From a virus: a stretch of 32,863 nucleotides of DNA. Where the stretch lies: IMG/VR virus record IMGVR_UViG_3300042879_001881, positions 1-32,863 of that record; one strand, 5' to 3'. The notes under the pieces were generated by a model, which was not told the origin of the DNA, did not search any database, and saw nothing but the letters and a program-made list of their open reading frames with translations. Position 1 is the stretch's first letter. The number at the start of each line of letters is the position of its first letter. This document shows, in pieces, positions 2,107-31,653 of the stretch. A program made the position numbers and the translations under genes.

Positions 2107-3863
2107 CGAATTGTCCTCCTGTAAAGTTTACTTTCCCAAATGTGCCTGCATTGCGGTACGTGGGTATTAGTGCCTGCAATCGTGCGCCAGCCTCCGCGCC
2201 GCTGCCATACGTTGTAGCCTAATTCCCTGCTCATTGCGTCTATTTCTTCGCGGCTGTATAGTTTGTTTTCCTCTACAAGGAACTTGCAAAAGTCCCGTGA
2301 GGTATCGAGTAGCAACGGCCCGCCCACATCTGGGTTTTTCCCGTACTTGTACAGAACGAAAATTTCCGTGTCAAGGCCGCCGCTGTCTGAAATAGAACGC
2401 GCACCGCTGTCGGTGATTTTGATTTCGTTTGTAGTCCACTCAATAAGCCTGTTTGCCTGCATCACTTTCAGGATATTTGCCGCTTCCGTTGTGGTCAGCC
2501 GTGCGCCCTTTGCAAGTTCTTCAAGAGTTGCCTTAGGGTTATCGCGAATCACCGCCACAAGCCTCAACTCGGGGTTAGTGAGTTCGGCGAAGGTTTCCGG
2601 CAGTTCTTCAAAGTCCGCCGCGCTGCGCCCGTACTTGCGAAAAACCGCCTTATCCGCTTCGTCGTTCCAGCCGAAAGGGTTCTGTGCAGACATGGCCACG
2701 GGCTGTTCTACCTTTAGGCCCAAACTTTCGCGTACTTCGTCACGGGTCATAATGCCAGCGGTAAACAACTGAACCGCATCCTCTCCCGCAGGTTCTGCGG
2801 CAATGGTGTACAATTCGCCTTCTTGCCCGGTTGCGTTGAACATGGTGGTAAGAACCTTGTCCATCTGCGTCCGTTTCGGCGCAACGTAGGCCCGGTCAAA
2901 AACCTCATAAGCCTGTTTGAGTTCATTCCGTCCCCCGAGTTCACCAGCCACACGAACACCGAACAACATTGGTGAAGTTACCCGGTGGGCATAGAATATG
3001 TTGTCCCGGACGGTTTCAGAAAGTTGAAGATACTGCTTATCGAAATCGCCGGGCATCAAGTCAACCACCTGAAGCGGGTCTTCGCCCTTCTCCATCCAGC
3101 TAATAAGAACGCCGTTTGCGTTTTCTGTTCCAGTGGTGTTGGCTTTGAACTTGCGGTCAAATTCAGCCTTTATGTCTTCGGTCGGTTCTCCTTTGAATAT
3201 CTGAATGATTTTACCAAGGGAAAAGCCGTTGGAAATGTTGTTGTAATGGAAATCAGAAATCTTCGTGTCAATTTCGATGTATGTTCTGGCAGGATACCAA
3301 TCAGGCAGCGGGTAAACGCCTTCGCCCGCCCTGTATTGTTTGAACCACAACACCTGCGTACCTCCGGGCTTTTCTAAATCGAACGCGGGAAATTCCAAAC
3401 GCTCTTCGCGCTTGTCGTTCCAATCGTCGGAATACCACACCTTCGATGCGTCCTTATTCACGCGACATTTGTCAAACGGCAGATGATACCAGTATAGAAC
3501 ACGTGTTCCCGGTGCGTTCCAGATTGCCTGAAAAGCAAAGCCGCCGAAGTTCTCTAAATCCATCGCAGCTTTATACTTAATGTCCTGCCACGATTCGTAA
3601 GGGTTCGCGTAATCAAGGGCTTTCTGTGCGCCTACCTTTTCGCCTACCGTACCTTCAACACGAACAGCCGTTTCCTTGCCCGCGATAAAGTGCGCCTTTT
3701 GGGTTACTATCGCATTGTGCAGGGAACTGCTGTTGTATAGGTCAAGAATAACTGCTGGGAAGTTGTTCTTTTGGCCGTATTCGTACCACTCCTGCCCGCG
3801 TGCCTCTTTGAATTTAGGCGGTGGCTGAACGGCAAAGTTTATGCGCTGAAATTCTACTTTCAT
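2103..3863 (-). CDS. Portal protein with C-terminal winged-helix-like and Cys/Trp extension
   Basis: The product has 586 residues. Residues ~1-400 look like a Bacteroidota phage portal (NNFPAVILDLYNSS, SNGFSLGKIIQI, then a helical HRVTSPMLFGV region). Portals form the dodecameric DNA gate of the capsid and dock the terminase. Residues ~425-495 (PKATLEELAKGARLTTTEA, VMQANRLIEWTTN) resemble a winged helix. The last ~85 residues (RDFCKFL, YSREEIDAMSRELGYNVWQRRGGW, ending P-CRHIW) resemble the C-terminal tail seen on head-morphogenesis proteins. The start overlaps the stop of the 104-residue gene upstream. The portal call is strong; the extension's role is unknown. Confidence 0.85.
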   Translation of the reverse strand: MKVEFQRINFAVQPPPKFKEARGQEWYEYGQKNNFPAVILDLYNSSSLHNAIVTQKAHFIAGKETAVRVEGTVGEKVGAQKALDYANPYESWQDIKYKAAMDLENFGGFAFQAIWNAPGTRVLYWYHLPFDKCRVNKDASKVWYSDDWNDKREERLEFPAFDLEKPGGTQVLWFKQYRAGEGVYPLPDWYPARTYIEIDTKISDFHYNNISNGFSLGKIIQIFKGEPTEDIKAEFDRKFKANTTGTENANGVLISWMEKGEDPLQVVDLMPGDFDKQYLQLSETVRDNIFYAHRVTSPMLFGVRVAGELGGRNELKQAYEVFDRAYVAPKRTQMDKVLTTMFNATGQEGELYTIAAEPAGEDAVQLFTAGIMTRDEVRESLGLKVEQPVAMSAQNPFGWNDEADKAVFRKYGRSAADFEELPETFAELTNPELRLVAVIRDNPKATLEELAKGARLTTTEAANILKVMQANRLIEWTTNEIKITDSGARSISDSGGLDTEIFVLYKYGKNPDVGGPLLLDTSRDFCKFLVEENKLYSREEIDAMSRELGYNVWQRRGGWRTIAGTNTHVPQCRHIWESKLYRRTIR

Positions 3864-4174
3864 TTTATTTTCAATACGCCGCTCTCAACGGCTTGGTTTG
3901 CTAAAGTTGGATCTGTGTTACTGCTGCTTGACTGGGCGTAAATCGTGTATTCGTATTCGCCCTTTTCCCATGCCGAACTTTGCGCCGTGGTTATGTTGAA
4001 TTGGTTATAGCGCGTGGGAAAGCTACTCAAATCCGTCACTATTAAATTGTAAGTGATGTCGCGTTCTTCACGGTTGTTCAACGACAGCAGGAAGTAATAC
4101 GGAGGGTTTAGCGTTACCTTTTCGGTTGCCGTAACGTATAGGGTACTCAGTTGCGTGGTGTCAATGATGAGCAT
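3860..4174 (-). CDS. Small conserved phage protein before the portal
   Basis: This 104-residue, beta-rich protein is of a type that often precedes Bacteroidota phage portals (motifs NPPYYFLLSLNN and GEYEYTIYAQSSSSNTDP). Ig-like or decoration folding is possible, but the function is unknown. Its start codon lies directly behind a copy of the putative late promoter block (4175-4204), making it the first gene of the portal-to-fibre unit. It is divergent from the plus-strand terminase cassette. Confidence 0.65.
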   Translation of the reverse strand: MLIIDTTQLSTLYVTATEKVTLNPPYYFLLSLNNREERDITYNLIVTDLSSFPTRYNQFNITTAQSSAWEKGEYEYTIYAQSSSSNTDPTLANQAVESGVLKIK

Positions 4175-4204
4175 TTCCTATAATGGGGAAACTTGCTTTT
4201 TGTC
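4175..4204 (-). promoter_or_regulatory. Putative phage late promoter block, copy 1
   Basis: On the minus strand the block reads GACAA, 13 bases, then CCATTATAGGAA, and the next base begins the ATG at 4174. It shares most positions with the block at 16198-16227, including TTTCCCCATTATAGGAA. The block sits in the 42-base divergent gap between the portal unit and the terminase cassette. Confidence 0.6.
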
Positions 4205-4205
4205 G

Positions 4206-4213
4206 TAACTTTG
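4206..4213 (+). promoter_or_regulatory. Possible -7 element of a plus-strand promoter
   Basis: TAACTTTG fits the Bacteroidota -7 element TAnnTTTG and lies only 3 bases before the chosen ATG at 4217. No good -33 TTTG is found 19-21 bases upstream, so this is weak. It is the only candidate I see for the inverted cassette. Confidence 0.25.
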
Positions 4214-4216
4214 AAT

Positions 4217-4819
4217 ATGCGTTACCCGAAAAGTTGGAATGAAGTAAATTTAGCGCAACTGCATGAACTTGACCTGCTCCGGCAGCGTACTGACCTGGAT
4301 GCTGAAGAAATCATGAATCAAATTCTTTCGGTATTGAGCAATGAACATATCGAAAAAATTGAGGAGTTGCCGCACAACGAGCGCATCGCTGCCTATCGTA
4401 AGCTGACCTTCCTCAACGAGTACCCATCCAAAAAGCCAAAGCGCAGGCGGTTCAAATTGGGTGGCAAGTGGTATCGAATCGTCACGAACCCTGCTGAAGT
4501 GAGTGCAGGAGAATACGCAACCTTGCAGGTAGTGGCAGCCGATGGCAAGTTCATACAGAATATGCCGCAGGTGATCGCCTGTTTGATGATTGAACAAAAG
4601 CGCAAGTGGTTTCGCTGGAAGGATATTCGGTATGATAAATCACGCAGTGCGCAGGAATTTCAACGTAAAGCAGCATTAGTCAGTCAGAAAATGCCCGTGG
4701 GGCAGGCGTACCCCTACGCGCTTTTTTTTTCGAATCTCTTACCCGAATTATTGAAAGCTTCCCTCACCTTTTTCCAACGACAGGAGAAGAAGCTGAGGAA
4801 GCAGGCAACGACTGGTTAG
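4217..4819 (+). CDS. Tail assembly chaperone (gpG-like)
   Basis: The product has 200 residues from the ATG at 4217 (MRYPKSWNEV); the TTG at 4193 would extend it, but the ATG is preferred. The layout (short N-terminal helix region, GGKWYRIVTNPAEVSAGEYATLQ core, helical end) matches gpG-type tail assembly chaperones of Bacteroidota phages, which coat the tape measure during tail building. Its 3' end contains a run of nine T (4722-4730). A -1 slip there bypasses the TAG at 4817 and joins the following 62-residue frame, as in the classic gpG-gpGT arrangement. It is far from the tape measure gene and on the opposite strand, which is unusual. Confidence 0.65.
   Translation: MRYPKSWNEVNLAQLHELDLLRQRTDLDAEEIMNQILSVLSNEHIEKIEELPHNERIAAYRKLTFLNEYPSKKPKRRRFKLGGKWYRIVTNPAEVSAGEYATLQVVAADGKFIQNMPQVIACLMIEQKRKWFRWKDIRYDKSRSAQEFQRKAALVSQKMPVGQAYPYALFFSNLLPELLKASLTFFQRQEKKLRKQATTG
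4722..4730 (+). promoter_or_regulatory. Slippery T9 tract, probable -1 programmed frameshift site
   Basis: In frame 0 the tract reads CTT TTT TTT TCG, an ideal T TTT TTT slippery heptamer. After a -1 shift the frame is open through FESLTRIIESF and EEAEEAGNDWLG and runs into the 62-residue frame ending at 5010. This gives a fusion of about 264 residues. The open, acidic, helix-forming stretch in the -1 frame between 4732 and 4821 supports real coding. Confidence 0.65.
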
Positions 4820-4821
4820 GA

Positions 4822-5010
4822 ATGTTTTACAGGATGGCAGGAAAAGACCTCACGAAAATGGATGCTGTTATGGCAATGCCGCTGATGGAGTTCTTCAATT
4901 ATGCCGCCATGCTGAAGACGATAGACAAAGAACGGGCCGACAGGCTGAACAAGGCGAGCAAGTTGAGTTATGAGGCGTACATGAGCGCATTAATGGGTGA
5001 ATTGATATGA
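4822..5010 (+). CDS. Tail assembly chaperone, frameshifted T part (gpGT-like)
   Basis: From its own ATG at 4822 this would be a 62-residue helical protein (MFYRMAGKDLTKMDAVMAMP, MEFFNYAAMLKTIDKERADR). The frame is open leftwards to the T9 tract of the preceding gene in the -1 phase, so it is best read as the C-terminal extension made by frameshifting. Its end overlaps the terminase start by 4 bases. The C-terminal helix with 'EFFNYAAMLKT' fits chaperone extensions that contact tail tube protein. Confidence 0.6.
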   Translation: MFYRMAGKDLTKMDAVMAMPLMEFFNYAAMLKTIDKERADRLNKASKLSYEAYMSALMGELI

Positions 5011-6191
5011 AGATAAAGTACCAACGCCCGCCCCTTGCACCGTATCAAATCGCTATCCTTGACAGCACGGCCCGCTACACCGTAACCGCTGCCAGCACGA
5101 AGGCAGGGAAAACCGCTTCACACATTGTGTGGCTTTTTGAAAAGGCGTTGCAAGGCAAAAAGGGGCAGTCATTCTGGTGGGTTGCGCCTGTATATGGACA
5201 GGCAGAAATCGCGTTCAGGCGTTTCAAGCAACAATGTTCTGAGCGGCTGTTTGATGCCAACGAAAGTAAATTACGATTGACCTTGCCAACGGGAGCAATG
5301 ATTGAATTTAAGTCAGCAGAAAAGCCCGACAATCTTTACGGCGATGATGTCTATGCGGCCGTGTTCGATGAGTTCACCCGCGCCCGTGAGGAAGCATGGT
5401 TTGCGCTTCGTTCCACGCTGACAAAAACACGAGGGCAATGCAAGCTGATTGGCAACGTGAAAGGCAAAAAGAACTGGGGCTACCGATTGGCAGAACGGGC
5501 AAGGCAGGGCGAAGATGGGTATGAGTTCCATAAAATCACGGCTTGGGACGCGGTAAACGCTGGCATATTGGAAAAAGAAGAAGTAGAACAGGCAGAACGT
5601 GACCTTCCCGCGCACGTCTTTAAGGAGTTGTACCTCGCAGAACCAGCAGATGATGATAGCAACCCTTTCGGATTAGACCACATTCGGTCATGTATCGAAC
5701 CGTTAGCAGCCGGCCCGGTTGAATGGTATGGCATTGACCTTGCAAAAAGCCGAGATTGGACGGTAATAATTGGACTAAATTCGTCCAAAAAGGTAGCCTT
5801 CTTCGAGCGTTTCCGGCTGGATTGGAAAGCAACCCGCGACACCGTGCAGCGGATTGTCGGCAGAACGCCTGCGGTCATTGACTCCACGGGAGTAGGCGAC
5901 CCGATTGTAGAAGATTTGCAGCGCGTTTGCCCACGGATTCAGGGCTTCAAATACACCTCAATTTCTAAACAACAAATCATGGAAGATTTAGCAGGCGCAA
6001 TCCACGGGCGTGAGGTTGTGTTTCCTGACGGCCCGATAGTAGATGAATTAATGAACTTTGAATGGACACACACAAGGACAGGCATAAGTTACAATGCGCC
6101 TGAAGGGCTGCACGATGACTGCGTGAACGCGCTTGCGCTTGCCCTGCATTGCAGCCGCGTAAACAAAAAGGGGCTATTTCTACTGACATGA
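5007..6191 (+). CDS. terL: Terminase large subunit (packaging ATPase-nuclease)
   Basis: The product is 394 residues and cuts and translocates DNA into the prohead through the portal. Walker A is at residues 30-36 (STKAGKT) and Walker B at 115-122 (VYAAVFDE). A coupling-type motif GNVKGKK is near 149-155. RNase H-like nuclease acidic residues are at D244 (YGIDLAKSRD), D292 (VIDSTG) and D370/D371 (LHDDCVNALA). The length is usual to slightly short for the family. The start overlaps the chaperone frame, and the TGA overlaps the ATG of the next gene. It is on the plus strand, unlike the portal and capsid genes. Confidence 0.92.
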   Translation: MKIKYQRPPLAPYQIAILDSTARYTVTAASTKAGKTASHIVWLFEKALQGKKGQSFWWVAPVYGQAEIAFRRFKQQCSERLFDANESKLRLTLPTGAMIEFKSAEKPDNLYGDDVYAAVFDEFTRAREEAWFALRSTLTKTRGQCKLIGNVKGKKNWGYRLAERARQGEDGYEFHKITAWDAVNAGILEKEEVEQAERDLPAHVFKELYLAEPADDDSNPFGLDHIRSCIEPLAAGPVEWYGIDLAKSRDWTVIIGLNSSKKVAFFERFRLDWKATRDTVQRIVGRTPAVIDSTGVGDPIVEDLQRVCPRIQGFKYTSISKQQIMEDLAGAIHGREVVFPDGPIVDELMNFEWTHTRTGISYNAPEGLHDDCVNALALALHCSRVNKKGLFLLT

Positions 6192-6679
6192 AAACACCTA
6201 TTGAAATCCTCGCCTCCGAAACATGGCCCGCGATGGTCTGCAAGAAATACAGCCCCGCACATTGGAAGGACTTGCAGCAGGAATTGTTTCTACTCATTGC
6301 CACGGAGTTGAGCGAAAAGGCAGCACGGGCACAGGAGGCAGGGTATTTTGAGTTCTTCTACATCCGATGCGCTGCGAACCTTTGCAAGCCGAACGGAACT
6401 TTAGGCAGCTTGAACATTGGCACGGATTCGCTTGAGGGCTGGGATGTTGCCGAAGAACACGACGAATGGCGGGAACGGAAGGAAGCGGATGTTCAGGAGA
6501 AATTAGACGCGATAGAAACGGTGCAAAGCCGTGAACCGTGGTACGAATCGAAGATGATGGAGTTGTATTTATCGGGAATGAGCATGAGAAAGATCCACCG
6601 CCTGACGGGTATTGCGCTGAACGAGGTGAGCAGGGTGATTAATGACTTCCGGGCAAAGTGCCGCGAGGAATACCTATAA
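6188..6679 (+). CDS. Sigma-70-like / helix-turn-helix protein
   Basis: The product has 163 residues from the ATG at 6188, which overlaps the terminase TGA (ATGA). The N-terminal half is helical (HWKDLQQELFLLIATE, then FFYIRCAANLC). The C-terminal half has WYESKMMELYLSGMSMRKIHRLTGIALNEVSRVIND, which resembles sigma region 4 helix-turn-helix. Similar proteins in flavobacterial phages are often annotated as sigma-70 family. Two roles are plausible: a late-gene sigma-like factor or a DNA-binding small terminase subunit. The unusual late promoter block elsewhere in this genome makes the first attractive but does not prove it. Confidence 0.55.
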   Translation: MKTPIEILASETWPAMVCKKYSPAHWKDLQQELFLLIATELSEKAARAQEAGYFEFFYIRCAANLCKPNGTLGSLNIGTDSLEGWDVAEEHDEWRERKEADVQEKLDAIETVQSREPWYESKMMELYLSGMSMRKIHRLTGIALNEVSRVINDFRAKCREEYL

Positions 6680-6683
6680 AGCA

Positions 6684-6711
6684 AAAAGGCCACCCCGAAG
6701 GGCAGCCTTTT
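6684..6711. terminator. Bidirectional terminator between convergent genes
   Basis: The hairpin is AAAAGGC-CA-CCC-CGAA-GGG-CA-GCCTTTT, with A and T tracts on its two sides, so it can act on both strands. It separates the plus-strand terminase cassette from the minus-strand tail tube gene. Confidence 0.8.
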
Positions 6712-6738
6712 CACACCATAACACAAAACGATTCAAAG

Positions 6739-7254
6739 TTACGATATTCCGAGCGAAGTCAATACACCGCTCAGAACAATTTGCGGGGGTTCTTTTTCCG
6801 CGTGCGTGAAGGTCAAGTCATAACCAGTCATGTCCCCGAGGGCAACACCAGTCATGAACGAGCCTGCGGTCATGTCCATGCCACGCGCAAGACCCATCGC
6901 CCAGTACTGGTCAGCATTGGTTTTTACGATAGCCACAAGACGGGCAACGCTCAACAGCTTTACTTCATTACGCTTAGCGGTGGACAGCTTGCGCAGTTTG
7001 ATGTTAAGTTCCGCAGAGTTGAACACCGTGCCATTCTCCACGCTTGGAGTGATGGTGTTTGTGAAACTTGCGGTGTCTTTAGGCAGTTCGTACTTGAAGA
7101 ACGCCTTGCCGCCATTAAGGGTCAGTGCGGACACTTCGCCTGAAGCTGAAGTGTAGGAGGATACAGCTTCGTATTCAACGAGCCATATTTTATCAACGCC
7201 CCCGACGCTGTCTTTGCAGTCGTGGGAAAATCCGGTGGTGAGAATGCAACTCAT
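6739..7254 (-). CDS. Probable major tail tube protein
   Basis: The product has 171 residues. The opening MSCILTTGFSHDCKDSVGG-DKIWLVEYEAV is the form I associate with Bacteroidota siphophage major tail proteins. The rest is beta-rich with a central LNIKLRKLSTAKRNEVKLL helix, as in tail tube folds. It follows the capsid gene but is separated from it by a strong terminator (7280-7306), so it is transcribed by read-through or from an unrecognised start. A neck or head protein is the alternative. Confidence 0.6.
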   Translation of the reverse strand: MSCILTTGFSHDCKDSVGGVDKIWLVEYEAVSSYTSASGEVSALTLNGGKAFFKYELPKDTASFTNTITPSVENGTVFNSAELNIKLRKLSTAKRNEVKLLSVARLVAIVKTNADQYWAMGLARGMDMTAGSFMTGVALGDMTGYDLTFTHAEKEPPQIVLSGVLTSLGIS

Positions 7255-7279
7255 ATCTTTTTTGTAGGGGTTAAAAAGA

Positions 7280-7306
7280 AAGGGCGGGCAATTTTACCCG
7301 CCCCTT
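7280..7306 (-). terminator. Rho-independent terminator after the capsid gene
   Basis: On the minus strand a 7-bp GC stem (GGGCGGG / CCCGCCC, loop TAAAATTG) is followed by TTTCTTTTT. It sits 22 bases past the capsid stop and 26 before the next gene, so it probably reduces tail gene expression relative to capsid. Confidence 0.85.
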
Positions 7307-7327
7307 CGGTTAATAATTCCTGTCTAA

Positions 7328-8293
7328 TTACAGGGTGAAGTACACGATTTGAGTTGGGAAAGCAACCTGAACACCGTATTTGAACTCGGCATTGAAGATT
7401 ACGTTTTTCTTAACCGGGTCAGAGATGAACTCAAAGTTCTCTTCTTCGCCTACAAGGTCAGTACCGATGAAGTAGTTAGACCAGTAGCTAAAGTGGATTT
7501 TGTTTGAACCATTCAAGCCTGGCAGACCATACACCTTTGTACCTGTGATAGGCTCAATAACCATGAACTGCTCACCTGTTTCAGGATTGTAGTGGTAGTT
7601 ATTAGCCGCAATCAGGTGTTGCTTGTACAGCAGGAAGGTGTCTACGCCCATAGCGAAGAAGCGATCTTCTTTGGCAAGGATAGCTTTACCATCGGTAGAA
7701 GCCTGAGCCTGGTTCACCATCTTTAAAATTGCGTCGTCAATATTCGCAACGGTCAAAGAGGTAAGCTGAGTCCATCCGCCACCTGTTGCGGGGTTGCCTT
7801 CGATAGGATCGCCTGCACCACCGAATCCGAGAGCGGTCAAGATGGTATTGAAGCCGTCGAACTGGTTTGCAGCGATAGTTCCCTGCCAGATGTCTTCTTC
7901 CAGAGCATCAGCAATTTTGCCGATTTTCTCGTTTCCGATTTGGTCAGCGAAAGGCAGCTCATTATCGCCACCTGAACCAGCAGCCATTTGCGTTTGCATC
8001 CACTTGGTCTTCAGTGTCTTAGGACACAATGTTTCGTAGACTTGAATATCGCCTACGGTCAAAGTGCGCTTGCTGAATGTGGTGCTTCCGCTGGTGGTTG
8101 GTTCGCAACCGTTAGCCTGGAAGAAAACGGTGGAATCTAGGATGTTCAGGTTGTCGGTGGTTTTGATACCGGGGATAACCTGGCCAGCTGCCTGGAGCAT
8201 GCTGGCGGTCTTGCCTCCGAAGAGGGCTTTGTACAGCAGGGGAAGGCGGTCTTCCTTGCCGTAGTTGTCGAGGTCAGTTACTACGAATGCCAT
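7328..8293 (-). CDS. Major capsid protein (HK97-fold type)
   Basis: The product has 321 residues. It lies just after the protease-scaffold gene (2 bases between the stop and this start) and has typical capsid features: conserved opening (VVTDLDNYGKEDRLPLLYKALF), a long mixed alpha/beta core with DALEEDIWQGTI spine-like helix, PETGEQFMVIEPITGTKVYGLPGL P-domain-like strand, and a beta-rich C-terminus. The leader is A-rich (CCCAAAAATAAAA before ATG), the usual form for highly expressed Bacteroidota genes. A strong terminator follows. The assignment rests on order, length and composition; the fold was not computed. Confidence 0.8.
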   Translation of the reverse strand: MAFVVTDLDNYGKEDRLPLLYKALFGGKTASMLQAAGQVIPGIKTTDNLNILDSTVFFQANGCEPTTSGSTTFSKRTLTVGDIQVYETLCPKTLKTKWMQTQMAAGSGGDNELPFADQIGNEKIGKIADALEEDIWQGTIAANQFDGFNTILTALGFGGAGDPIEGNPATGGGWTQLTSLTVANIDDAILKMVNQAQASTDGKAILAKEDRFFAMGVDTFLLYKQHLIAANNYHYNPETGEQFMVIEPITGTKVYGLPGLNGSNKIHFSYWSNYFIGTDLVGEEENFEFISDPVKKNVIFNAEFKYGVQVAFPTQIVYFTL

Positions 8294-8295
8294 TT

Positions 8296-8865
8296 TTATT
8301 TTTGGGTTTTAATTTTTCGGATTGCTTCTGCAAACTTTTCGATACGCTCCTCACGGCGTGCAGCTTCGCCCTTGAGGCCATTTACTTTCTTAACAGGTTC
8401 AGCAGCGGGAATCGCGCTGAATTGCTCAATTACTTCCAGGGTCTTTGCCTGTGCGTTGGTCAGGTTTTCTACCAGTCCGGTCAGCTTCTGAATGATGGCT
8501 GCCTGTTCGTTGAACTTAGCCTCAAACTCAGCTTTTACGCTGGCCATCTCTGTGCTGCTTTCAACTTCTACCACTTCCTCAACTTCAGCCTTTTCAACGA
8601 TTTGCGTCACCACGCCGCCTTCGGTTGTTACCAAGTAGCCTTCAGCGGTTTCATGTGTTCCATCGGGTGCGGGAACAAACTCGCCGTCCGGGGTTTGCAC
8701 TTCAAGAACTGAACCTACGCCAAGCATAGCGATTTCTTCGCCCGGGAAACGGATAACCGTCCCGTCTACAAGAGTGCTTTCGGCGAACTTCACGGCAGGG
8801 GTTTCTTCCTCCACCGAAAAGCCGAGCAGCTTCTTGATTTCGTTAATTTTATTAATTGCGCTCAT
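8296..8865 (-). CDS. Capsid scaffold from an internal in-frame start
   Basis: An in-frame ATG at 8865 (MSAINKINEIKKLLGF) inside the protease gene would give a 189-residue scaffold alone. Directly before it stands a copy of the 30-base block that precedes three other structural genes, with the same spacing to ATG. The scaffold is acidic and ends in a basic helix (EERIEKFAEAIRKIK), typical of capsid-binding tails. Independent scaffold from the 3' part of a protease gene is known for lambda C/Nu3; here it is inferred from the signal and domain border. Confidence 0.6.
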   Translation of the reverse strand: MSAINKINEIKKLLGFSVEEETPAVKFAESTLVDGTVIRFPGEEIAMLGVGSVLEVQTPDGEFVPAPDGTHETAEGYLVTTEGGVVTQIVEKAEVEEVVEVESSTEMASVKAEFEAKFNEQAAIIQKLTGLVENLTNAQAKTLEVIEQFSAIPAAEPVKKVNGLKGEAARREERIEKFAEAIRKIKTQK

Positions 8866-9894
8866 TTCATATAATGGATTAATTTCGGAATTGTCGTACT
8901 TTGTAAGGATTGCCTCGATAGCAGCCATTGTCTGTTCTTCGCTGCTTGCGGGTTTGTCCGTGAAATAACCCTCAATGGAAAACCCTTTGAACTTGCCTTC
9001 CTTGATGTTCTGCCATACAGCGTCGTCTTCCACGTAATAGGAAAGAAACCAACTGCCCTCCGGTGCGTCTGCCCACATCTGCGGAGGATTTATTCCGCGT
9101 TCCTTGTCCACTATGAACGACTCCAGCAGGTGCATCCCGCCCACGGGGTTTGCGTGTTCAGCGTTCACCGCGTTATACTTGTTTTGGAGTGCCCACAGCT
9201 TTACCGCCTTTTGGATTGTTGCCGCGCTGAACTTGACGTAATAGGTTGTGCCGTCTTCAGCCCTGCGCAGGATGGGTTTTTCTGCAATCATGGCCGGGCC
9301 TGTGATGATGCGCCGTTCTTCGGATTGAATAGCGAAGGAAAGTTTCTCCCGCTCTATCGTGTTGATTTTCGCCTCTGCCCAACGTAGCATTTCTTCACCG
9401 CCCCATAGGAGGTATGAAATAGTGCCGCACGCCTCAGGGTCGTCTGGGTTGTAGTATTCAGCCGCCCTGGAAAGATAGGAGTAGGTGCGCCGGATAGTTT
9501 GTTCTGACAGCGGTTCTCCGGATGCAATCTGCTGCGCCCTGACCTTGCCCACCTGTGTCGCACACTTGTTGTTCAGTTCTTCGTTAAGACGGATGCCGCG
9601 TTCTGCGTTTGCCTTCGCTGCCTCGGGGTAGTCGCTGAAGCTGGCCATCTGCGTTTTGTCTTCCCAATAGCTGTAACATATTGCAACCGCCTGTTCCTGG
9701 TCTTTGCCTTCGCCGATCAGGATGGGAACGCACCGCCCGATAAAGTCTTCTTCGGTTTCGTTAGCGGTCGGGGTCACGAATTTATCCGCGCTGAAGAAAT
9801 GGAAATCCTCTTCAATGGCGGGTGACTGCACAAGGCTGACCTGCGTCAGTCCATCGCCGTCTTCAATTTCTAAGTAGTAAATCGGGTCGTTCAT
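8296..9894 (-). CDS. Prohead protease (XkdF-like) fused to N-terminal domain and C-terminal scaffold
   Basis: The product has 532 residues in three parts. Residues ~45-175 carry a module also seen in other phage structural polyproteins (FIGRCVPILIGEGKDQEQAVAICYSYWED, then ACGTISYLLWGGEEMLRWAE). Residues ~190-340 resemble the XkdF protease (ITGPAMIAEKPILR, NAEHANPVGGMHLLESFIVD, GSWFLSYYVEDDAVW, GKFKGFSIEGYF). From M344 on, the protein is scaffold-like with an acidic stretch and a coiled coil (MASVKAEFEAKFNEQAAIIQKL). The protease matures the prohead by cutting scaffold. A late promoter block lies directly before this start, and another before M344. Confidence 0.75.
   Translation of the reverse strand: MNDPIYYLEIEDGDGLTQVSLVQSPAIEEDFHFFSADKFVTPTANETEEDFIGRCVPILIGEGKDQEQAVAICYSYWEDKTQMASFSDYPEAAKANAERGIRLNEELNNKCATQVGKVRAQQIASGEPLSEQTIRRTYSYLSRAAEYYNPDDPEACGTISYLLWGGEEMLRWAEAKINTIEREKLSFAIQSEERRIITGPAMIAEKPILRRAEDGTTYYVKFSAATIQKAVKLWALQNKYNAVNAEHANPVGGMHLLESFIVDKERGINPPQMWADAPEGSWFLSYYVEDDAVWQNIKEGKFKGFSIEGYFTDKPASSEEQTMAAIEAILTKYDNSEINPLYEMSAINKINEIKKLLGFSVEEETPAVKFAESTLVDGTVIRFPGEEIAMLGVGSVLEVQTPDGEFVPAPDGTHETAEGYLVTTEGGVVTQIVEKAEVEEVVEVESSTEMASVKAEFEAKFNEQAAIIQKLTGLVENLTNAQAKTLEVIEQFSAIPAAEPVKKVNGLKGEAARREERIEKFAEAIRKIKTQK
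8866..8895 (-). promoter_or_regulatory. Putative late promoter block, copy 3 (internal to protease gene)
   Basis: On the minus strand it reads GACAA, 13 bases, CCATTATATGAA, then the in-frame internal ATG. Spacing is identical to the other copies. Its place inside coding sequence, exactly at the domain border, argues for function. Confidence 0.6.
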
Positions 9895-9924
9895 TTTATC
9901 TAATGGTTAAAAATGTCATTTGTC
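9895..9924 (-). promoter_or_regulatory. Putative late promoter block, copy 4
   Basis: On the minus strand it reads GACAA, 13 bases, CCATTAGATAAA, then the ATG of the protease-scaffold gene. It overlaps the last codons of the neck protein gene. The second half is less conserved than in the other copies. Confidence 0.5.
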
Positions 9925-10506
9925 TTGCTTTGCCATAACGGAAATGGAAAGGGCTATCTTCTGCCCCATCGCCCGTCCGAGGTATTCCGCGAACTCGTCA
10001 AAGGTGGCGTCGTTAATGATTTTGCTGAAGAACTTGTTGCCCTTGTAGCCTTTTGCGTGGATTTTGCGCGCAATCGCTTTGGCCAGGTTCATGTTCTTTT
10101 CTGCGCGTGTGTCGCCTGGCATATTGCTTACGTCTATGCCCTTTGCGCTGATCCACCCGGTAGGCCCAGACAATGCCTTTACAAGTTGGCCGTCACCGCT
10201 GTTCCGTGTGCGTCGCCTGCCACCGTCCACGTATTCGTAATAATCATTAGCGTTAATTGCGCCGATTACATCCTTCCCCCGTGTGCGTGTCTTCGCTGCG
10301 TCGAGTGATTGAAACAAACTCATGCTTGCACGTCCTGAAGGGTTCTGGGAATTTTTAAGGCTCGTTTTCAAACGCTCCGTGGTGTAGTTAGTCCACCCCT
10401 GTACCAAGTCAGAAAGCAAATCACCTGTGAGGGTTGGCTGTTCTACCTCCGCTTTGCCGAGCCGTGAAAGGTACTGCCGCTGAAGTGCTGTGAGTTTGCC
10501 GTTCAT
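9916..10506 (-). CDS. Neck / tail completion protein (HK97 gp10-like)
   Basis: The product has 196 residues. The central NANDYYEYVDGGRRRTRNSG followed by a WISAKGIDV segment and a helical IARKIHAKGYKGNKFFSKII end is the typical order of gp10-like neck proteins in Bacteroidota phages. An N-terminal helical part (LLSDLVQGWTNYTTERLK) precedes SGRASMSLFQSL. The start overlaps the tape measure stop (ATGA). It would join head and tail. The call is based on motif order and location. Confidence 0.6.
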   Translation of the reverse strand: MNGKLTALQRQYLSRLGKAEVEQPTLTGDLLSDLVQGWTNYTTERLKTSLKNSQNPSGRASMSLFQSLDAAKTRTRGKDVIGAINANDYYEYVDGGRRRTRNSGDGQLVKALSGPTGWISAKGIDVSNMPGDTRAEKNMNLAKAIARKIHAKGYKGNKFFSKIINDATFDEFAEYLGRAMGQKIALSISVMAKQDK

Positions 10507-12620
10507 AACACGCTCGTTTTGCGAAGGTTGCGCGTGCGCCGCTGCGTTGCGCTGATATCCCCTTCAGTTACATAGACTTTGTTACTCCATTGCCCGGCCT
10601 GCTGCGTTCCACCTCCCAAGCTGCTGCTGTTCATGGAAGGCATTGGAACATTAACACGGCCACCGCCTAACCCTGGAGAACCGCCGCCGCCTTGCTGAAC
10701 ATTGCCGCTTTTCACAATCTTAATAGCCCGCGCTGAACCAGAAAGGATAGCCGCCGAAAGTGCCGCGTATTTTGCAAGGCCAGCCAAACCGCCAGAGGCT
10801 ACGTTGTCGGGGCTTGGTGATTGGCTCACATTCAACGCTTTTGCAATAGCCATACCCGTATCCGCTGCAATTTGAGCAAGGGCAATCGCTTTTCCTGCAA
10901 CCGTTTCCTGCCCTATGATGTCTATTGCCGCGCTGCTCGCCGTCATTAGGTCGGCATAGATTTTTTCTTTAACGCTTTTCTTCGCCTCTTCAACCGTCTT
11001 TTCTTTTTCAGCCGCATCTTTCAGGTTAGCAAGGCGAATCGCCTCCAGTTCCTTTTCCTGTTCCACGGTTGCCAGCCCTGCATCTTTACGCGCTTGAATT
11101 TCGTTTTGCAGTTCGCGCTTTCGGATTTCCGTTTGCGCCTTCTGCAAATCTTCTTGCGTTTTGGCCGCCTTCATCGCGGCAAGTTCTTCCTCATCGTACT
11201 TTTTTTGAATGAACGCCAACTCATCGTTTGCCGCCTTTTCGTTTTCCTGTTTGCGCTTCTCTTCAGCTGCCTTGCGGATTGTTTCCTGTTGCTTGTAGTA
11301 TTCTTGATCAATCTTCAGCAGTTCATCTGCTAACATCTTCGCCATAAGGGCTTCGTCATAGCCCTTTTGCTCAAGGTCTTTTTTGCGCAACTCAAATTCC
11401 TTTTCAGCAATGGCCCGACGGTTGGCTAAACTATCCTCTTCGGTTTTGAGCCTATCTATATCGCGCTGTATCGCGTCCTGTGCTGCTTGTTCTTCCTTCG
11501 CTTTTTCTTCATCGCGCTTTTTTTGTTTATCCTCCGCCGCTTGTTTCCCGATTTCTTTAACTGCTAATTGATGCCCTGCAAGCGTGTTTTCCATTTGCCG
11601 CTGAGCTGCCTCCATTTCTTTAATTTCTGCGTCCGCTTTTTTCTTTGTTTCGACGGGGTCAAATGCCATTGACACAACCTCTTTCTTCATTTTGGCAAAC
11701 TCAGCAACAAGCCCAGTTTCATAACCTAATGCGCCCGCTATCTTATCTACAATTTTCAAGATAAGATTCATCGGAGAACTGATGAAATCCAAAATACCTG
11801 AAAGGATATTCCTATTGCGTTCAGCCGCTGCTATTTGTGCCGTGGCCTGCGCCTTACTCGTTTCGATGACCGCCTTCTGATTGTCGATGGCAACCTTCAA
11901 AGCGGCAATCTTCATCTTCAAGATGTCCTTTTCAGATTTGCCCTGTGCCTTCAGAATGTTGTCGGATTCATCCAACGCCTTAACTTGATTTTCCGAAGCC
12001 TTCAGCCTGTCCTGTTGTGACTTGAGTAGTTTTTTATCCGTCTTTGAAACGCCGCTTAACCCGAAGTCCAAATCCTTAACCAAGGAAACAAGCATTGTAA
12101 TGCCGCCAATCAGCACACCAATACCCAACGCAGCCATGAAAGCCTTTGCCGCACCTGCAAGAGTAGTGAACGCAGGCACAACCTTGCTCATAATGTCCCC
12201 GCCCAGCCCTGCAAAGGTTTTGCCCATGTCTTTCATGTCGGCAATGCCCTGCGAAAGGGCCATCGCGCCTTGAATGCGCACAAGGGATTTTTGCAGGTCT
12301 TCAGATTCTCCACCGAGCAAAGCTGCCGCGCCCTGTGCCGCTGCGAAGCCTGATGCAAGTTTAGAAGTGATATTTGCTATTCTCTGAAAGCGGTCAGGAT
12401 GCAGTCCCGCGATGGTGGCGTTCAAATCCTCCATCTGGTCGCGAAGCTGTGCCACCTTCTTTGCAGCCGCCAATGTGCGCTCGTCCGTTTCGCCGAACGC
12501 AGCCGCCAGCCTTAACGCCTCCTGTTGCGCTTCGCGAATCTGCGCCTTAAAGGATTTTACGGACTGATCCCCGCTCACGGTGGCCTGCACTTCAACTGGT
12601 TGTACTATCTTTTTTGCCAT
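10503..12620 (-). CDS. Tail tape measure protein
   Basis: The product has 705 residues. Long coiled-coil segments dominate (two helical repeats rich in K/E/A/Q, about 20-80 and 330-560), with a hydrophobic membrane-like segment near 165-185 (ALGIGVLIGGITMLVSLV) and a second hydrophobic, Ala-rich stretch near 565-640. The end is Gly- and Ser-rich. This is the classic tape measure make-up: it sets tail length and helps DNA entry. By the usual ~1.5 angstrom per residue rule, the tail would be about 100 nm. The start overlaps the preceding stop (TAATG). It has no peptidoglycan hydrolase domain that I can see. Confidence 0.85.
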   Translation of the reverse strand: MAKKIVQPVEVQATVSGDQSVKSFKAQIREAQQEALRLAAAFGETDERTLAAAKKVAQLRDQMEDLNATIAGLHPDRFQRIANITSKLASGFAAAQGAAALLGGESEDLQKSLVRIQGAMALSQGIADMKDMGKTFAGLGGDIMSKVVPAFTTLAGAAKAFMAALGIGVLIGGITMLVSLVKDLDFGLSGVSKTDKKLLKSQQDRLKASENQVKALDESDNILKAQGKSEKDILKMKIAALKVAIDNQKAVIETSKAQATAQIAAAERNRNILSGILDFISSPMNLILKIVDKIAGALGYETGLVAEFAKMKKEVVSMAFDPVETKKKADAEIKEMEAAQRQMENTLAGHQLAVKEIGKQAAEDKQKKRDEEKAKEEQAAQDAIQRDIDRLKTEEDSLANRRAIAEKEFELRKKDLEQKGYDEALMAKMLADELLKIDQEYYKQQETIRKAAEEKRKQENEKAANDELAFIQKKYDEEELAAMKAAKTQEDLQKAQTEIRKRELQNEIQARKDAGLATVEQEKELEAIRLANLKDAAEKEKTVEEAKKSVKEKIYADLMTASSAAIDIIGQETVAGKAIALAQIAADTGMAIAKALNVSQSPSPDNVASGGLAGLAKYAALSAAILSGSARAIKIVKSGNVQQGGGGSPGLGGGRVNVPMPSMNSSSLGGGTQQAGQWSNKVYVTEGDISATQRRTRNLRKTSVL

Positions 12621-15010
12621 TATACTTCTTTAATCAATACCACGTTCCAATCCGCTCCTGTCCATTCAATAGCAGGGCGGTAAACATCGCCTGTGGTGGG
12701 TGCGCCGATGTCCTTGTAAGTTAAATTCACTACGCCTTGTGTCCAGTCTACTATCGGCCCTTTGCCGCCTTCGTTGCTGCCTCCGAGCGTTGACCATGCA
12801 AATCGTTTCTTCTTCCCGATGGGCCGCGTCCTGATGTTTGGGAAAGCATCGTTATTCGTGTCCTTAATGTCGTACCCTCCCCCGGCTGCCCCGGTCTGCG
12901 GGGTGAACACGTTTGCTGTTTTGATTTTCAAGAACTCGCACTCGATTAACTCGCTTTCGCCTACTTGGTAATCTTGGATTTTGTTCAGTCTGAAATATTG
13001 GCCCTGAAAGAAATACAAATCCCGGAATGACCATTTCAGCCAGTCAGCCGGAGTGATGTAAACCCGCGCCGTAACGATGCGACTATTTCGGTCGGTGATT
13101 TCCGTCAGGTACTTTCTCCAGTAAACGTTAAACAGGTTGTTGTTGGTGTATGTTACGCCAGCCGGAAGGTTTACATATGCAGGCATTCCAAAGGACAGGT
13201 CAATAGTCGGTGTGAAAGGGTCATCCAAATGCCCTGCGTGGGGATAGCCTTCGATGGTATCAGCACCGGACGGCCCGGTAAAGAACTTGAACGAGTCGCA
13301 CAATAACCATTCTTCAGTACCTATTTTTCCGCTCCAGTACAGGATACGCAGCGTTCCAGCCTTTTCTTCAGCCGTTTCCATGCTTGCAATGCGGAAGTTA
13401 TTGCTGCTTTCCGTGCTGTATGGCGTGGATGCGAAGATGGTTTCTGTTTTGCGCTCGTCTTTTATCAGGTCGTTGTCTATTATTATCCGCGCTTCTCCGT
13501 ACACCGTGCCAATGGCGTCCACATATTCTTTGCTGTCATCATCATCCCCTTTCGCGTATGTGAAGACGTAAGGGTTGCCTTCCAATTCGCCCATTGGGGT
13601 TATCGTCATGGGCTGCGAATAATCAATCTTCGCGGTCAGGTCGTGAATGACCGTATCGCGATAGAAGGTGTCACGCGGTGCAATGTATAGTTCATTAGTG
13701 CGCCCGGTCGGTTCGATGTACAGGTTGAACATCTTCACCAGGCTGTTTAAGAACTCGTCCTGCTTCCACTTGCCCCCGGTGAAAATGCCATTCATGTCCA
13801 CGGTTGAATCCAGCCCATAGGAAGTCTGAATCGGGTCAATCCTTACCCAGCTGTTTGCCTTAATTGTTATGATTCCCCCGGTAATTACCTCACCCATCCG
13901 GGCATCAGAATAATCCAGCACATCAATAATGCGTAGGTCTATCTTTTCGTTTTTGTCAGCATAGACGTCATTAATGGTGAAGGTGAATGTTTTTGTTGCG
14001 CCCGTTACTGCCACGTTCACGATCCGCAAAGGGTTGTGCAGTTCAGCCAGCTTCCCATCCACATAAACGCCGACCGTCATTGTGATGTAAGGATAGGTTA
14101 CGTTTGAAAGGCCTGTGATATTCACGGTGATACTACCCGATACGCTGAACCTCCCGCCGCCCGTGGGGCTGTTATACTTGCCCGTTGCCGTATCGAAGTT
14201 CCCGCCGTTGTCGTAATAACCGCCGCTGCTGTCGTCGTTAAAAACAATCGTGCTGCCTTCCGCGTAAACCGCATCCGCGTTGCGCCTTGCCCGTGCCTTG
14301 CGCGATGTTACAACAGCCTCGTTTATCTGTGGAACGCCCGGCGATGGGATGACAAGTTTTTTGAACAGGTCTGTATTGAAGAATGAATCTGAAGAATACG
14401 CGAACCCCGCGCTGGTGAAAATCTTATCAACTAATGTTTTTGCAAACACAGCCGGGTAAAAGTCCTGAACGCGCCACACCATTGCAAACGGTACGTCCGT
14501 CCTATTTCGGTCAATCATTGGATAAACGTAACCGCTTGCAGGTGTAAAATTCCAACTTGCCTGAATGTTGGTACGGTTTAGGGTGTGGTTAAATTCGGAT
14601 AGGTCAATATCCGAAAGCTGAAGGTTGCGAATCTTCGCGAACAGGTCAGCCGCTAAGCCGTGAACGCTCACTTCGTATTCTATTTGTCCTTTGCGCGTGA
14701 CGTTTATGTTGAGCAACCGGACATATCCGCGCACCTGTTCCACCTCATCCACCGTCACAAGGGCCGCCGCTTTCTTGTTCGGGTTAAAGTCAGGCGCGAA
14801 TTGTGTGCCGTTGTTGAGCTGCTCCTGGTTCACATCGAAGATGTGGCCGAAAAGCTTATTATTGGCTGATGTGCCGGGGATGCGAAAGGTCCTGGACCAA
14901 TCAGAGGACCGCTGCGCAGGCTCGCGGATGTCCGCTATCTCCCGGGTAACTTGCAGAACTTCGTTTTCCGACAGATCCACCTGCCTGCCTTCAATAAACA
15001 ACCGCATCAT
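12620..15010 (-). CDS. Large tail / baseplate protein
   Basis: The product has 796 residues. The opening MRLFIEGRQVDLSENEVLQVTREIADIREPAQRSSDWSRTF is typical of Bacteroidota siphophage tail proteins placed after the tape measure-type genes and thought to form the tail tip (distal tail/hub region). Most of it is beta-rich; residues near 285-320 are Gly/Ser/Thr-rich with SGSITVNITGLSN, which could be a carbohydrate-binding insertion. No enzyme motif was seen. The start (ATGATG at 15010) overlaps the preceding gene. The role is inferred from order and size. Confidence 0.65.
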   Translation of the reverse strand: MMRLFIEGRQVDLSENEVLQVTREIADIREPAQRSSDWSRTFRIPGTSANNKLFGHIFDVNQEQLNNGTQFAPDFNPNKKAAALVTVDEVEQVRGYVRLLNINVTRKGQIEYEVSVHGLAADLFAKIRNLQLSDIDLSEFNHTLNRTNIQASWNFTPASGYVYPMIDRNRTDVPFAMVWRVQDFYPAVFAKTLVDKIFTSAGFAYSSDSFFNTDLFKKLVIPSPGVPQINEAVVTSRKARARRNADAVYAEGSTIVFNDDSSGGYYDNGGNFDTATGKYNSPTGGGRFSVSGSITVNITGLSNVTYPYITMTVGVYVDGKLAELHNPLRIVNVAVTGATKTFTFTINDVYADKNEKIDLRIIDVLDYSDARMGEVITGGIITIKANSWVRIDPIQTSYGLDSTVDMNGIFTGGKWKQDEFLNSLVKMFNLYIEPTGRTNELYIAPRDTFYRDTVIHDLTAKIDYSQPMTITPMGELEGNPYVFTYAKGDDDDSKEYVDAIGTVYGEARIIIDNDLIKDERKTETIFASTPYSTESSNNFRIASMETAEEKAGTLRILYWSGKIGTEEWLLCDSFKFFTGPSGADTIEGYPHAGHLDDPFTPTIDLSFGMPAYVNLPAGVTYTNNNLFNVYWRKYLTEITDRNSRIVTARVYITPADWLKWSFRDLYFFQGQYFRLNKIQDYQVGESELIECEFLKIKTANVFTPQTGAAGGGYDIKDTNNDAFPNIRTRPIGKKKRFAWSTLGGSNEGGKGPIVDWTQGVVNLTYKDIGAPTTGDVYRPAIEWTGADWNVVLIKEV

Positions 15011-16197
15011 AGCCGCTGCCTCCTGTTTGTCAGGGCGCGTTGAATGGTGACGGAATATTGCACCAGCCCATCCCGGTTGTACTTGCGCTCAAACTCCGTG
15101 GAGTTTACAGTAACCTTTTCCATTGCACTAAACGCGCCCATGTAAACCACAGGACTGAATAGCAACTGCTCGATAAATTCCGCTTCGGTATCCGTGAGGA
15201 AGTCCGTGTTGAGCGTCCATTGCTCCGTCACCATTGTATTGTAATTGGTGACACCGCCCCGAGCGTTTGAGTAGTTGTATGCGCCTGTGGTATAACGGAA
15301 CGAATCCTGCTCAAAGGTCTTTTTCTCCCCGGTCAGGTTGCGCACCGTACGTTTGCGGAAGGTATAGGAATCGAACCCTCCCAAGGTGTTGAGGAAGTGA
15401 AGCGTTACCGGGTCGTACTTGCTGCACTCCGTCCACAGGTCGAAGCGCATTGTTTCCGATGCCTTGCCTGAGTAACCGGAAGGGTACGCCTGCACCGTGT
15501 AATAAGCCTCGTTTCCAGACGTAAAGCCTATGCCGTTGAAGGTGCAATCAGCCGCAAGCAGCCGCGATTTGTAGTCAACATAGGTGAAGGTTTTCTGCAC
15601 CGTCTGAAGCAGCGAACCTGCCGCGTTGTAACTCTTAAACTCAAACACCTTATTTACCGTGTCCGTACCAAACAGCGCATGAATCGTGTGCGCCTCATCT
15701 GCCTGCACTTTGCGAGGGCGAACCGTGGTAAGAAATTGCGCCCCGGCTGTTCCACCGGATGCGGTTAGGTAGTCTGCTTGGGCATAACCGAGGAAGTCCT
15801 GCACAGGCAGGCAGGCATCCCATGAAAACTTGTTCCCCGTGTTCACTACGCCCGTGGCTTCCGTCACAACCCCGCTGCCGTATTCATAACCAAACTTTGC
15901 CCGATAGGTAACGATGCGAGGCTGCCCGACAACCGCCGCCGCTGATGGTGGTTCAAAGTCGTTGCCGACGTATGACGCGATGATTTCTGTAATGTCGAAC
16001 ACCGCTTCGTTTTGGCTGCTGCCATATCTGATGGGTGCTTTGAGTTTCGCCTGAATCGTGCCATCAATCTCCACCTCGCACAGGTAGCGGAAATTGCTTG
16101 CGCCCGTTATTGCCGTGTCCGTTTCGCGAACTACGAAGGTCAGCGGGTTAAAGGCAGGTGAGTAGTCTTGCGGCTGCTGCTGAATTGAGTAGGCCAT
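15007..16197 (-). CDS. Tail protein (distal tail-like)
   Basis: The product has 396 residues and is beta-rich throughout (MAYSIQQQPQDYSPAFNPLTFVVRE, VCEVEIDGTIQAKLKAPI-like strands), ending RRQRL. It is the first gene of the tail unit: its ATG follows directly the putative late promoter block at 16198-16227. The gene encodes no recognisable enzyme. The neighbour downstream is the large tail protein, with a 4-base overlap. A minor tail or distal tail role fits context; the exact family is not recognised. Confidence 0.6.
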   Translation of the reverse strand: MAYSIQQQPQDYSPAFNPLTFVVRETDTAITGASNFRYLCEVEIDGTIQAKLKAPIRYGSSQNEAVFDITEIIASYVGNDFEPPSAAAVVGQPRIVTYRAKFGYEYGSGVVTEATGVVNTGNKFSWDACLPVQDFLGYAQADYLTASGGTAGAQFLTTVRPRKVQADEAHTIHALFGTDTVNKVFEFKSYNAAGSLLQTVQKTFTYVDYKSRLLAADCTFNGIGFTSGNEAYYTVQAYPSGYSGKASETMRFDLWTECSKYDPVTLHFLNTLGGFDSYTFRKRTVRNLTGEKKTFEQDSFRYTTGAYNYSNARGGVTNYNTMVTEQWTLNTDFLTDTEAEFIEQLLFSPVVYMGAFSAMEKVTVNSTEFERKYNRDGLVQYSVTIQRALTNRRQRL

Positions 16198-16227
16198 TTC
16201 CTATAATGGGGAAAGTGGCATTTTGTC
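16198..16227 (-). promoter_or_regulatory. Putative late promoter block, copy 2
   Basis: On the minus strand it reads GACAA, 13 bases, CCATTATAGGAA, then the ATG of the first tail gene. It is nearly the same as copy 1 although that one lies 12 kb away. No TAnnTTTG element is present, so it is not the ordinary host promoter form. Confidence 0.65.
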
Positions 16228-16257: not shown

Positions 16258-16284
16258 AAGGGGCAGCCACCACAGCTACCCCTT
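16258..16284 (-). terminator. Terminator before the tail unit
   Basis: On the minus strand AAGGGG-t-AGC pairs with GCT-g-CCCCTT around a short loop and is followed by TTTCACTTT. It would separate leftward transcripts of the early region and tRNA-like element from the tail unit. Confidence 0.6.
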
Positions 16285-16368
16285 CCCGCGAAACCCGCCG
16301 CCATTCTTTGTTACCGTGACGGCTCGGCTGCTCGGTTACGTTTTGGTTAAACGCCAGTCGAACATTTG
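16285..16368. other. Non-coding stretch with no recognised feature
   Basis: This is the part of the 325-base gene-free spacer (16198-16522) between the terminator and the tRNA-like element. I find no supported reading frame, promoter or stable hairpin. It would be the 3' flank of the tRNA-like element on the minus strand. Confidence 0.4.
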
Positions 16369-16487
16369 TGACCGGGGATGGATTCAAACCATCAACCCAT
16401 TCAACCCGCTTGGCTCTCTTTCGGTCGGTGCTTGCAAGCCACCTCGCGAAGCGTAGTTAATGCTCTTGTCAGTTGAGCTACCCGGTC
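16369..16487 (-). tRNA. tRNA-like element with a 50-base anticodon loop (degenerate or intron-bearing)
   Basis: On the minus strand a 7-bp acceptor stem (GACCGGG / CCCGGTC) with discriminator A, a D stem (GCTC / GAGC), and a T arm (GATGG, loop TTTGAAT, CCATC) are all present in tRNA order. The anticodon stem can be drawn as TTAAC / GTTGA, but its loop is 50 bases instead of 7 and contains a further hairpin (GGTG...CACC around GCTTGCAAGC). The D loop lacks the GG pair and the T loop has T instead of C56, so the usual G19-C56 contact is missing. No anticodon can be read. It may be a decayed tRNA, one with a ~43-base insert, or a tRNA mimic. Confidence 0.45.
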
Positions 16488-28435: not shown

Positions 28436-28466
28436 CAAATATACTACCGATTTCCACAACTGCAAA
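28436..28466 (-). promoter_or_regulatory. Bacteroidota-type promoter B
   Basis: On the minus strand TTTG-N19-TATATTTG is a consensus match. The -7 element lies 20 bases before the ATG at 28415, as in promoter A. It drives the early operon leftwards. Confidence 0.85.
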
Positions 28467-31240: not shown

Positions 31241-31653
31241 CCTTGCAGCACCTCCATTGCTTCCTTAACTGCGTCGTAATACGTGACAGGCGGCTGACCC
31301 CAGTCACAGCGAGGGGAATTGTCAACGGCATACGCGCCCAACACCTGCTGAAGATAGGTTTCCAATGCGTTTATTTTCGCGCTGGTTTTGCCCGCTGCCT
31401 GAAGTTTCATTTTTAAATAAATCAAGGTCGGCTGCTGGCTGCTTCCGATTCCCACTATGTCCAGCCATTCTCCCGCCGTGTATAATGGCTTAGGTTGCTG
31501 CTTGTACAACTGCACCCAATGAGTTTCAGCCCATTGCAGGCGGTCTTCCACCACTACGCAGCACGGGTCTGCTTCGGGTTTGAGTTCATGGACGGGGAAA
31601 TATCCATCTTTCGGTTCAGGGCTTATTGCGCCCGTTATGTCACGATAAATCAT
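31237..31653 (-). CDS. Fibre-associated hypothetical protein
   Basis: The product has 138 residues from the ATG at 31653 (MIYRDITGAISPEPKDGYFP), which overlaps the fibre stop (ATGA); the ATG at 31689 is inside the fibre gene. It has adjacent cysteines (DPCCVVVEDRLQW) and a C-terminal helical part. A fibre assembly chaperone or small tip protein fits its position. Family not recognised. Confidence 0.55.
   Translation of the reverse strand: MIYRDITGAISPEPKDGYFPVHELKPEADPCCVVVEDRLQWAETHWVQLYKQQPKPLYTAGEWLDIVGIGSSQQPTLIYLKMKLQAAGKTSAKINALETYLQQVLGAYAVDNSPRCDWGQPPVTYYDAVKEAMEVLQG
31481..31506 (-). promoter_or_regulatory. Putative late promoter block, copy 5 (inside the fibre-associated gene)
   Basis: On the minus strand TACAA, exactly 13 bases, then CCATTATA. 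It is not followed by a start codon but would drive holin, endolysin and spanin genes. The first base of GACAA differs, so it could be chance. Confidence 0.4.

Follow-up and report, generated by a model that had tools for sequence, protein, structure and literature searches.

A bipartite block abutting late-gene start codons, a probable phage-specific promoter with a candidate sigma-like reader, in a phage of likely Bacteroidota hosts

The IMG/VR virus record IMGVR_UViG_3300042879_001881 was analysed over its whole length of 32,863 nucleotides (the window) with respect to a bipartite block, GACAA-N13-CCATTA, which a preliminary description of the sequence had put forward as a possible phage-specific late promoter. 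A 49-bp direct terminal repeat (1-49 and 32815-32863) identifies the window as a complete genome, circular (or circularly permuted), and the copies found in it are therefore all the copies that exist. In the exact motif search of the whole genome there are exactly four, all on the minus strand (4181-4204, 8872-8895, 9901-9924, and 16204-16227), and six bases on from each an ATG begins, at 4174, 8865, 9894, and 16197, respectively. The layout is the same in all four, with GACAA at -30 to -26, CCATTA at -12 to -7, and the ATG at +1.

The first candidate late promoter block, P-4174 (4175-4204, minus), consists of GACAA, N13, CCATTA, and TAGGAA, followed by the ATG of a small conserved gene (3860-4174, minus), which precedes the portal gene and is the first of the portal-fibre-lysis transcription unit. 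P-9894 (9895-9924, minus) is located ahead of the gene for a fused prohead protease (Peptidase_S78_2) and scaffold (8296-9894, minus), and its GACAA extends over the final codons of the gene upstream. The internal block, P-8865 (8866-8895, minus), is nested within this same coding sequence (CDS), ahead of the ATG of the scaffold alone (8296-8865), a product of 189 aa. P-16197 (16198-16227, minus) stands before the gene that opens the upstream late/tail cluster (15007-16197, minus), and 30 nucleotides upstream of its GACAA there is an intrinsic terminator hairpin, then TTTTC (16258-16284, minus). The earlier statement that the blocks precede structural genes or the internal scaffold start is broadly right.

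On the plus strand, a small terminase-like gene (4217-4819, named from its position) heads an operon with terL (5007-6191) and the gene of a 163-aa sigma-like protein of the extracytoplasmic function (ECF) type (6188-6679), which overlaps the end of terL and is the proposed reader of the late promoters. The divergent start codons of 3860-4174 and 4217-4819 are 42 bp apart. A host-type -7 element, TAACTTTG (4206-4213, plus), lies 3 nucleotides before the ATG at 4217, divergent from P-4174 and adjoining it. The gene of the candidate major capsid protein (7328-8293, minus), assigned by position and conservation, has an A-rich start region without a block. TerL has relatives in a Fibrisoma genome, a Mucilaginibacter genome, and a Flammeovirgaceae bin, which supports a Bacteroidota host. 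No capsid relatives were found in bacterial genomes, and neither the capsid protein nor the sigma-like protein had a match in the phage collection.

The four copies, each ending six bases before an ATG as first described, are borne out by the exact search and by an expectation of 0.015 copies under a first-order Markov model (0.000 when the ATG condition is added). Among the 202 minus-strand ATG codons in open reading frames (ORFs) of at least 60 aa, no 5+6 dyad at a fixed offset recurs more often than the one at -30, which has four copies; the next best has two, shifted versions of the top dyad excepted. The pattern was picked post hoc and, when the ATG anchor is removed, gapped dyads of four copies do arise somewhere in shuffled sequences; independent support is taken from conservation in other phages and from a position weight matrix (PWM) trained on other phages only, with the window excluded. 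By this matrix the four sites score 47.5, 41.0, 40.1, and 40.1 bits, and the next site on either strand 1.6 bits. TAHHTTTG, the -7 element of the Bacteroidota primary sigma (at -12 to -5), is found in none of the four blocks, in agreement with the preliminary description, and a scan with the sigma-70 consensus gave no match near them. The blocks are, in this respect, a repeated promoter-like element ahead of late genes which is distinct from the host consensus.

Relatives were collected as 134 loci (L005-L138) from scans with the capsid protein, the capsid alignment, and the sigma alignment; after contained sequences had been dropped, 96 sequences remained, the window included. In close relatives, GACAA-N13-CCATTA is kept at the same genes. 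Distant relatives carry a different element at the same genes and at nearly the same distance to the ATG, and nine phage lineages have their own -10-like element close ahead of the same start codons. In detail, these elements are ATACATTATAGG in lineage B, GTACATTATAG in E, TTCCGCA...GCCATTGTAAG in C, TACTTTTATAG in D, GTACATTT in F, GGTACATTTA in G, GTACTATT in H, and CTCCATT in L104. The absence of the block from the same genes of related phages, which the preliminary description had named as evidence against its proposal, was looked for and not seen, either the block or the version of the lineage being present there.

Different genes of one lineage share the version of that lineage. In leave-one-gene-out tests, some site sets of which were transcribed by hand, the motif of the own lineage was the best in 19 of 25 cases, against 2.9 on average and never more than 8 in 100 permutations of the lineage labels within genes. 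For the -10 part by itself, the permutation run gave 16/25, with a null maximum of 10.

For the nested block, codon constancy was scored in 343 columns of 34 distinct CDS from five lineages, and the columns of the block are at the top, a rank which is no probability because the sequences are related. The codons AAG, GAC, AAT, TTA, and GAA around 8866-8895 are invariant where the amino acid is kept, and the block holds the only all-TTA column among 25 leucine columns, TTA accounting for 11% of leucine codons. As judged from these codons, the 8866-8895 block is under constraint at its synonymous positions. Lineages D, F, G, and H have the scaffold as an ORF of its own, and the element of the lineage before its start is clear in D and F and appears as an AT-rich variant in G and H.

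It was also observed that one phage group has protease and scaffold in a single ORF and the other has them in two ORFs (window 8296-9894; L050, L110, L114, and L123). The two-ORF group has, in addition, its terminase-sigma block on a different position and strand.

The sigma-like protein (6188-6679) is present, near or next to terL, in every lineage whose contigs cover its region; the partial records G006, G008, and G010 showed no match to it. Among lineages A, B, C, and E its identity is 34-63%, against 78-92% for TerL. The AlphaFold (AF2) model of the full protein, with a predicted local distance difference test score (pLDDT) of 75, is made up of two helical domains plus a disordered linker. 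Its top PDB matches in Foldseek are ECF sigma factors or their complexes in 10 of 10 cases (E at least 0.026, probability 0.90-0.98), and region 4 is aligned structurally with Z of about 9 over 57-74 residues. Taken by itself, the N-terminal domain (pLDDT 88) resembles region 2 of ECF sigmas with Z 5-6 over 66-67 of 80 residues, a level below that which is safe on its own for helical bundles. A PDB sequence search with the profile of the sigma-like family gave no useful match. In the putative recognition helix, NEVxRV occurs with GACA-like upstream elements and DKE(I/V)RRV with TTCCGCA (L027, lineage C).

The suggestion that this protein is a candidate reader finds support in its presence across lineages and in its predicted ECF fold, and it is probably the reader of the late promoters. 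Among related phages the promoter changes along with the sigma, as is seen in the concerted sites and the fast sigma, and the link between the two may be causal. In the relatives listed, the host-type TAACTTTG is found at the terS-terL-sigma operon throughout clade B and in most of clade A, with related elements in L033 and L110. An operon starting in this way fits a host polymerase that makes the sigma first.

In some relatives (L006/L065, L043, L036, L072, L062, L056, and L071), insertions of about 600 nucleotides are located in the gap between terL and the sigma-like gene or in that between the small gene 4822 and terL. They are perhaps mobile genes.

If a sigma of the host, primary or other, read the late promoters, perhaps together with a phage activator, the terL-linked protein would have another role; we regard this as unlikely. 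This view draws on the elements of lineages D, F, and G (TACATTTG, TACATTTA, and TACTTTTA), which resemble the host -7 TAHHTTTG at the same distance to the ATG and suggest a possible origin of the late element from a host promoter. Of the six near-invariant host positions, on the contrary, no more than two are matched by the window element. Several lineages keep a host-type TAHHTTTG at the terS-terL-sigma operon while their late sites diverge in concert, and the sigma-like protein travels with these phages.

The surroundings of the blocks favour a promoter. Of 41 distinct cases of the 3860-type gene, 14 have a terminator-like hairpin that ends 26-43 nucleotides upstream (mostly 37-41), and for the 15007-type gene the count is 6/18 (35-69 nucleotides upstream); in the same scan of the relatives, none was found before the protease, portal, 1600, and 12620 genes. 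The window hairpin at 16258-16284 with its TTTTC has an RNA folding energy of -18.2 kcal/mol (z -3.4), and this terminator sets the late cluster apart from upstream transcription. Operon-internal genes, the capsid gene and the portal among them, have other leaders and no block.

A translation-initiation signal of the mRNA, as a Bacteroidota counterpart of Shine-Dalgarno or Kozak-like sequences, would account for the fixed distance between the end of the block and the ATG, and the A near -3 fits the Kozak-like preference of Flavobacterium johnsoniae (PMC6847099). Such a signal would be present whatever the operon position, but the block is absent from the capsid, portal, and other internal genes and sits at cluster heads, behind terminators or divergent genes. 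Moreover, a half-site at fixed spacing 26-30 nucleotides upstream is promoter-like, and the block changes in concert in each lineage. A role in translation is thus highly improbable, and the preference of the preliminary description for a promoter is upheld. A late activator or repressor site, or a DNA packaging or replication signal, would likewise be bipartite, of fixed spacing and few in copies per genome, but it is scarcely credible in place of a promoter core, as orientation and start-codon distance are fixed in every lineage and the stretch from terminator or divergent gene to ATG leaves scant room for another promoter.

A strong terminator (7278-7307, minus) was also noticed between the capsid gene and gene 6739-7254, a stretch that has no block; terminator-like hairpins are its counterpart in 41 of 53 distinct relatives. 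Gene 6739-7254, therefore, probably depends on read-through.

The start of the RNA can be placed by comparison. With the phage sigmas of phiEco32 and 7-11, transcription starts 6-9 bp from the elements (PMC8948821), and the -7 box of F. johnsoniae is at -12 to -5 (PMC6847099). Both spacings place the RNA start at the ATG. The -10 element is at -12 to -7 in the window and close to that elsewhere, so that leaderless mRNA is predicted. This would be unusual for the phylum, since in F. johnsoniae leaders exceed 10 nucleotides in 87% of the transcripts with a probable promoter (PMC6847099).

Read together, the position of the blocks, their conservation and concerted change, the synonymous constraint, the adjoining terminators, and the predicted sigma fold are properties of the sequences themselves, and from them we infer the RNA start sites, leaderless translation, the temporal class of the genes, and the protein that reads the sites. 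The blocks are probably phage-specific late promoters, which would give (nearly) leaderless late mRNAs and would be read by the divergent ECF-type sigma of 6188-6679. GACAA would serve as the -35-like part (-30 to -26) and CCATTA as the -10-like part (-12 to -7), with RNA polymerase starting at the A of the ATG or at most about 2 bases from it. Four late mRNAs would begin in this way, headed by the 15007-16197 cluster, the protease-scaffold, the scaffold alone, and the portal-fibre-lysis unit. Host RNA polymerase would transcribe the sigma operon from TAACTTTG first and would later be redirected to the late promoters, whereas the nested promoter at 8866-8895 would provide additional scaffold without protease.

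Several points weigh against this interpretation. The Pfam r2/r4 and PHROG matches of the window protein are below significance, and the best Foldseek E is only 0.026, although the top matches are all ECF sigmas. The correlation in the recognition helix may represent one evolutionary change. In the concert test, the -35 part alone gave 9/25 (null maximum 10), which is not decisive, and in the lineages of other gene order the -35 half was not detected. No internal scaffold block can be seen in the fused gene of lineage C. GTG is the start codon of some block genes, and only some bacteria tolerate it in leaderless translation. Finally, hhalign detected no homology between the window sigma family and gp33 of the cultured phage described next.

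A similar arrangement exists in a cultured Bacteroidota phage, Nonlabens (Persicivirga) phage P12024S, the portal of which is 24% identical to that of the window. Its gp33, located shortly before terL, matches Pfam Sigma70_r2 above the cutoff (E 1.4e-5), and six AAACAAA...CGTTAA-N5/6-ATG sites stand ahead of its late-region genes (shuffle expectation 0.0). In the genome of Mucilaginibacter pedocola, which carries related terL and sigma-like genes, ATACTTA is placed close before the ATG at three starts, two of them with CAACAGCGC upstream.

The remaining features of the window concern its gene map. In relatives, a single strand carries, in this order, the 3860-4174 gene, portal, 1600, 1004, fibre, the 31237 gene, holin, and endolysin; given the circle junction, this order puts the window lysis genes downstream of the 4175-4204 block. 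The late genes of the left end are thus followed by those for fibre and lysis near the right end. A fifth near-copy (31481-31506), formerly counted as the same signal, was rejected as a chance match: it scores -3.8 bits by the PWM, lies inside a CDS, and is unconserved, CCATTA reading CCACTA or CCGCTA, or being lost, in relatives.

The minus strand of 16368-16487 has a tRNA-like fold with an insert, a GACCGGG/CCCGGTC acceptor, and a TTTGAATC T-loop. ARAGORN reports it as tRNA-Pro(cgg) only if introns are allowed, and in the fetched relatives it has no blastn match except for the adjoining terminator stretch. Two host-type promoters alike in sequence are located in the non-structural region at 28443 and 17528 (minus), with TTTGCA or TTGCAA, about 19 nucleotides, and then TATATTTG or TATCTTTG.

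Little work has been done on how Bacteroidota phages control transcription. The chances seem evenly balanced that a large and mostly uncultured group of these phages has leaderless late morphogenesis mRNAs, a fast-evolving sigma beside the terminase, pairs of sigma and promoter respecialised in each lineage, and a nested promoter that sets the scaffold-to-protease ratio, with host translation perhaps tuned to leaderless messages, as suggested for phiYS40. If true, late genes would be recognisable in this group by sequence alone, and the sigma-promoter pairs of about 10 lineages would offer a natural collection of specificities for use in orthogonal expression tools. A mostly leadered phylum would, in addition, express abundant virion proteins from leaderless messages. 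The cultured phage with the same layout makes these predictions directly testable.

Among known systems, the nested scaffold of the lambda C/Nu3 type has protease and scaffold in one frame with an internal scaffold start. There the internal start is a ribosome start only, whereas that of the window has its own promoter-like block. The phages phiEco32 (phi32_gp36) and Salmonella phage 7-11 (SaPh711_gp47) are alike in using a phage sigma-like protein with the host core polymerase and few late-gene promoters, the sequences of which differ from one relative to the next in step with the sigma; they differ in their enterobacterial hosts and in their promoters, the bipartite GTAAtg-16-aCTA or the single tAATGTAtA (PMC8948821). 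The text consulted reports no fixed abutment to the ATG, whereas GACAA-13-CCATTA of the window ends at the ATG and has one copy nested in a CDS. Middle and late mRNAs of Thermus phage phiYS40 are reported as leaderless (as described in PMC3594737); the phylum is another one, the mRNAs of the host phylum of the window are mostly leadered (PMC6847099), and for the window a phage sigma is put forward. The Bacteroidota primary-sigma -7 TAHHTTTG (PMC6847099) has the same position relative to the predicted start, and the elements of the distant lineages look like derivatives of it. The window block, on the other hand, mostly lacks T-12, A-11, T-6, and G-5 and has the GACAA half-site. A comparable layout is that of P12024S/L (NC_018271 and NC_018272), which share a portal relative, a Sigma70_r2 protein near terL, and a repeated bipartite element with CGTTAA 5-6 nucleotides before the ATG, whereas their element and sigma sequences are unrelated to those of the window at the level tested. 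PMC4615864, which relates to P12024S/L, mentions no promoter, and the literature searched yielded no description of promoters of this kind in phages of Bacteroidota. Phage late sigmas and leaderless phage mRNAs are thus each known, and their combination and co-diversification look new.

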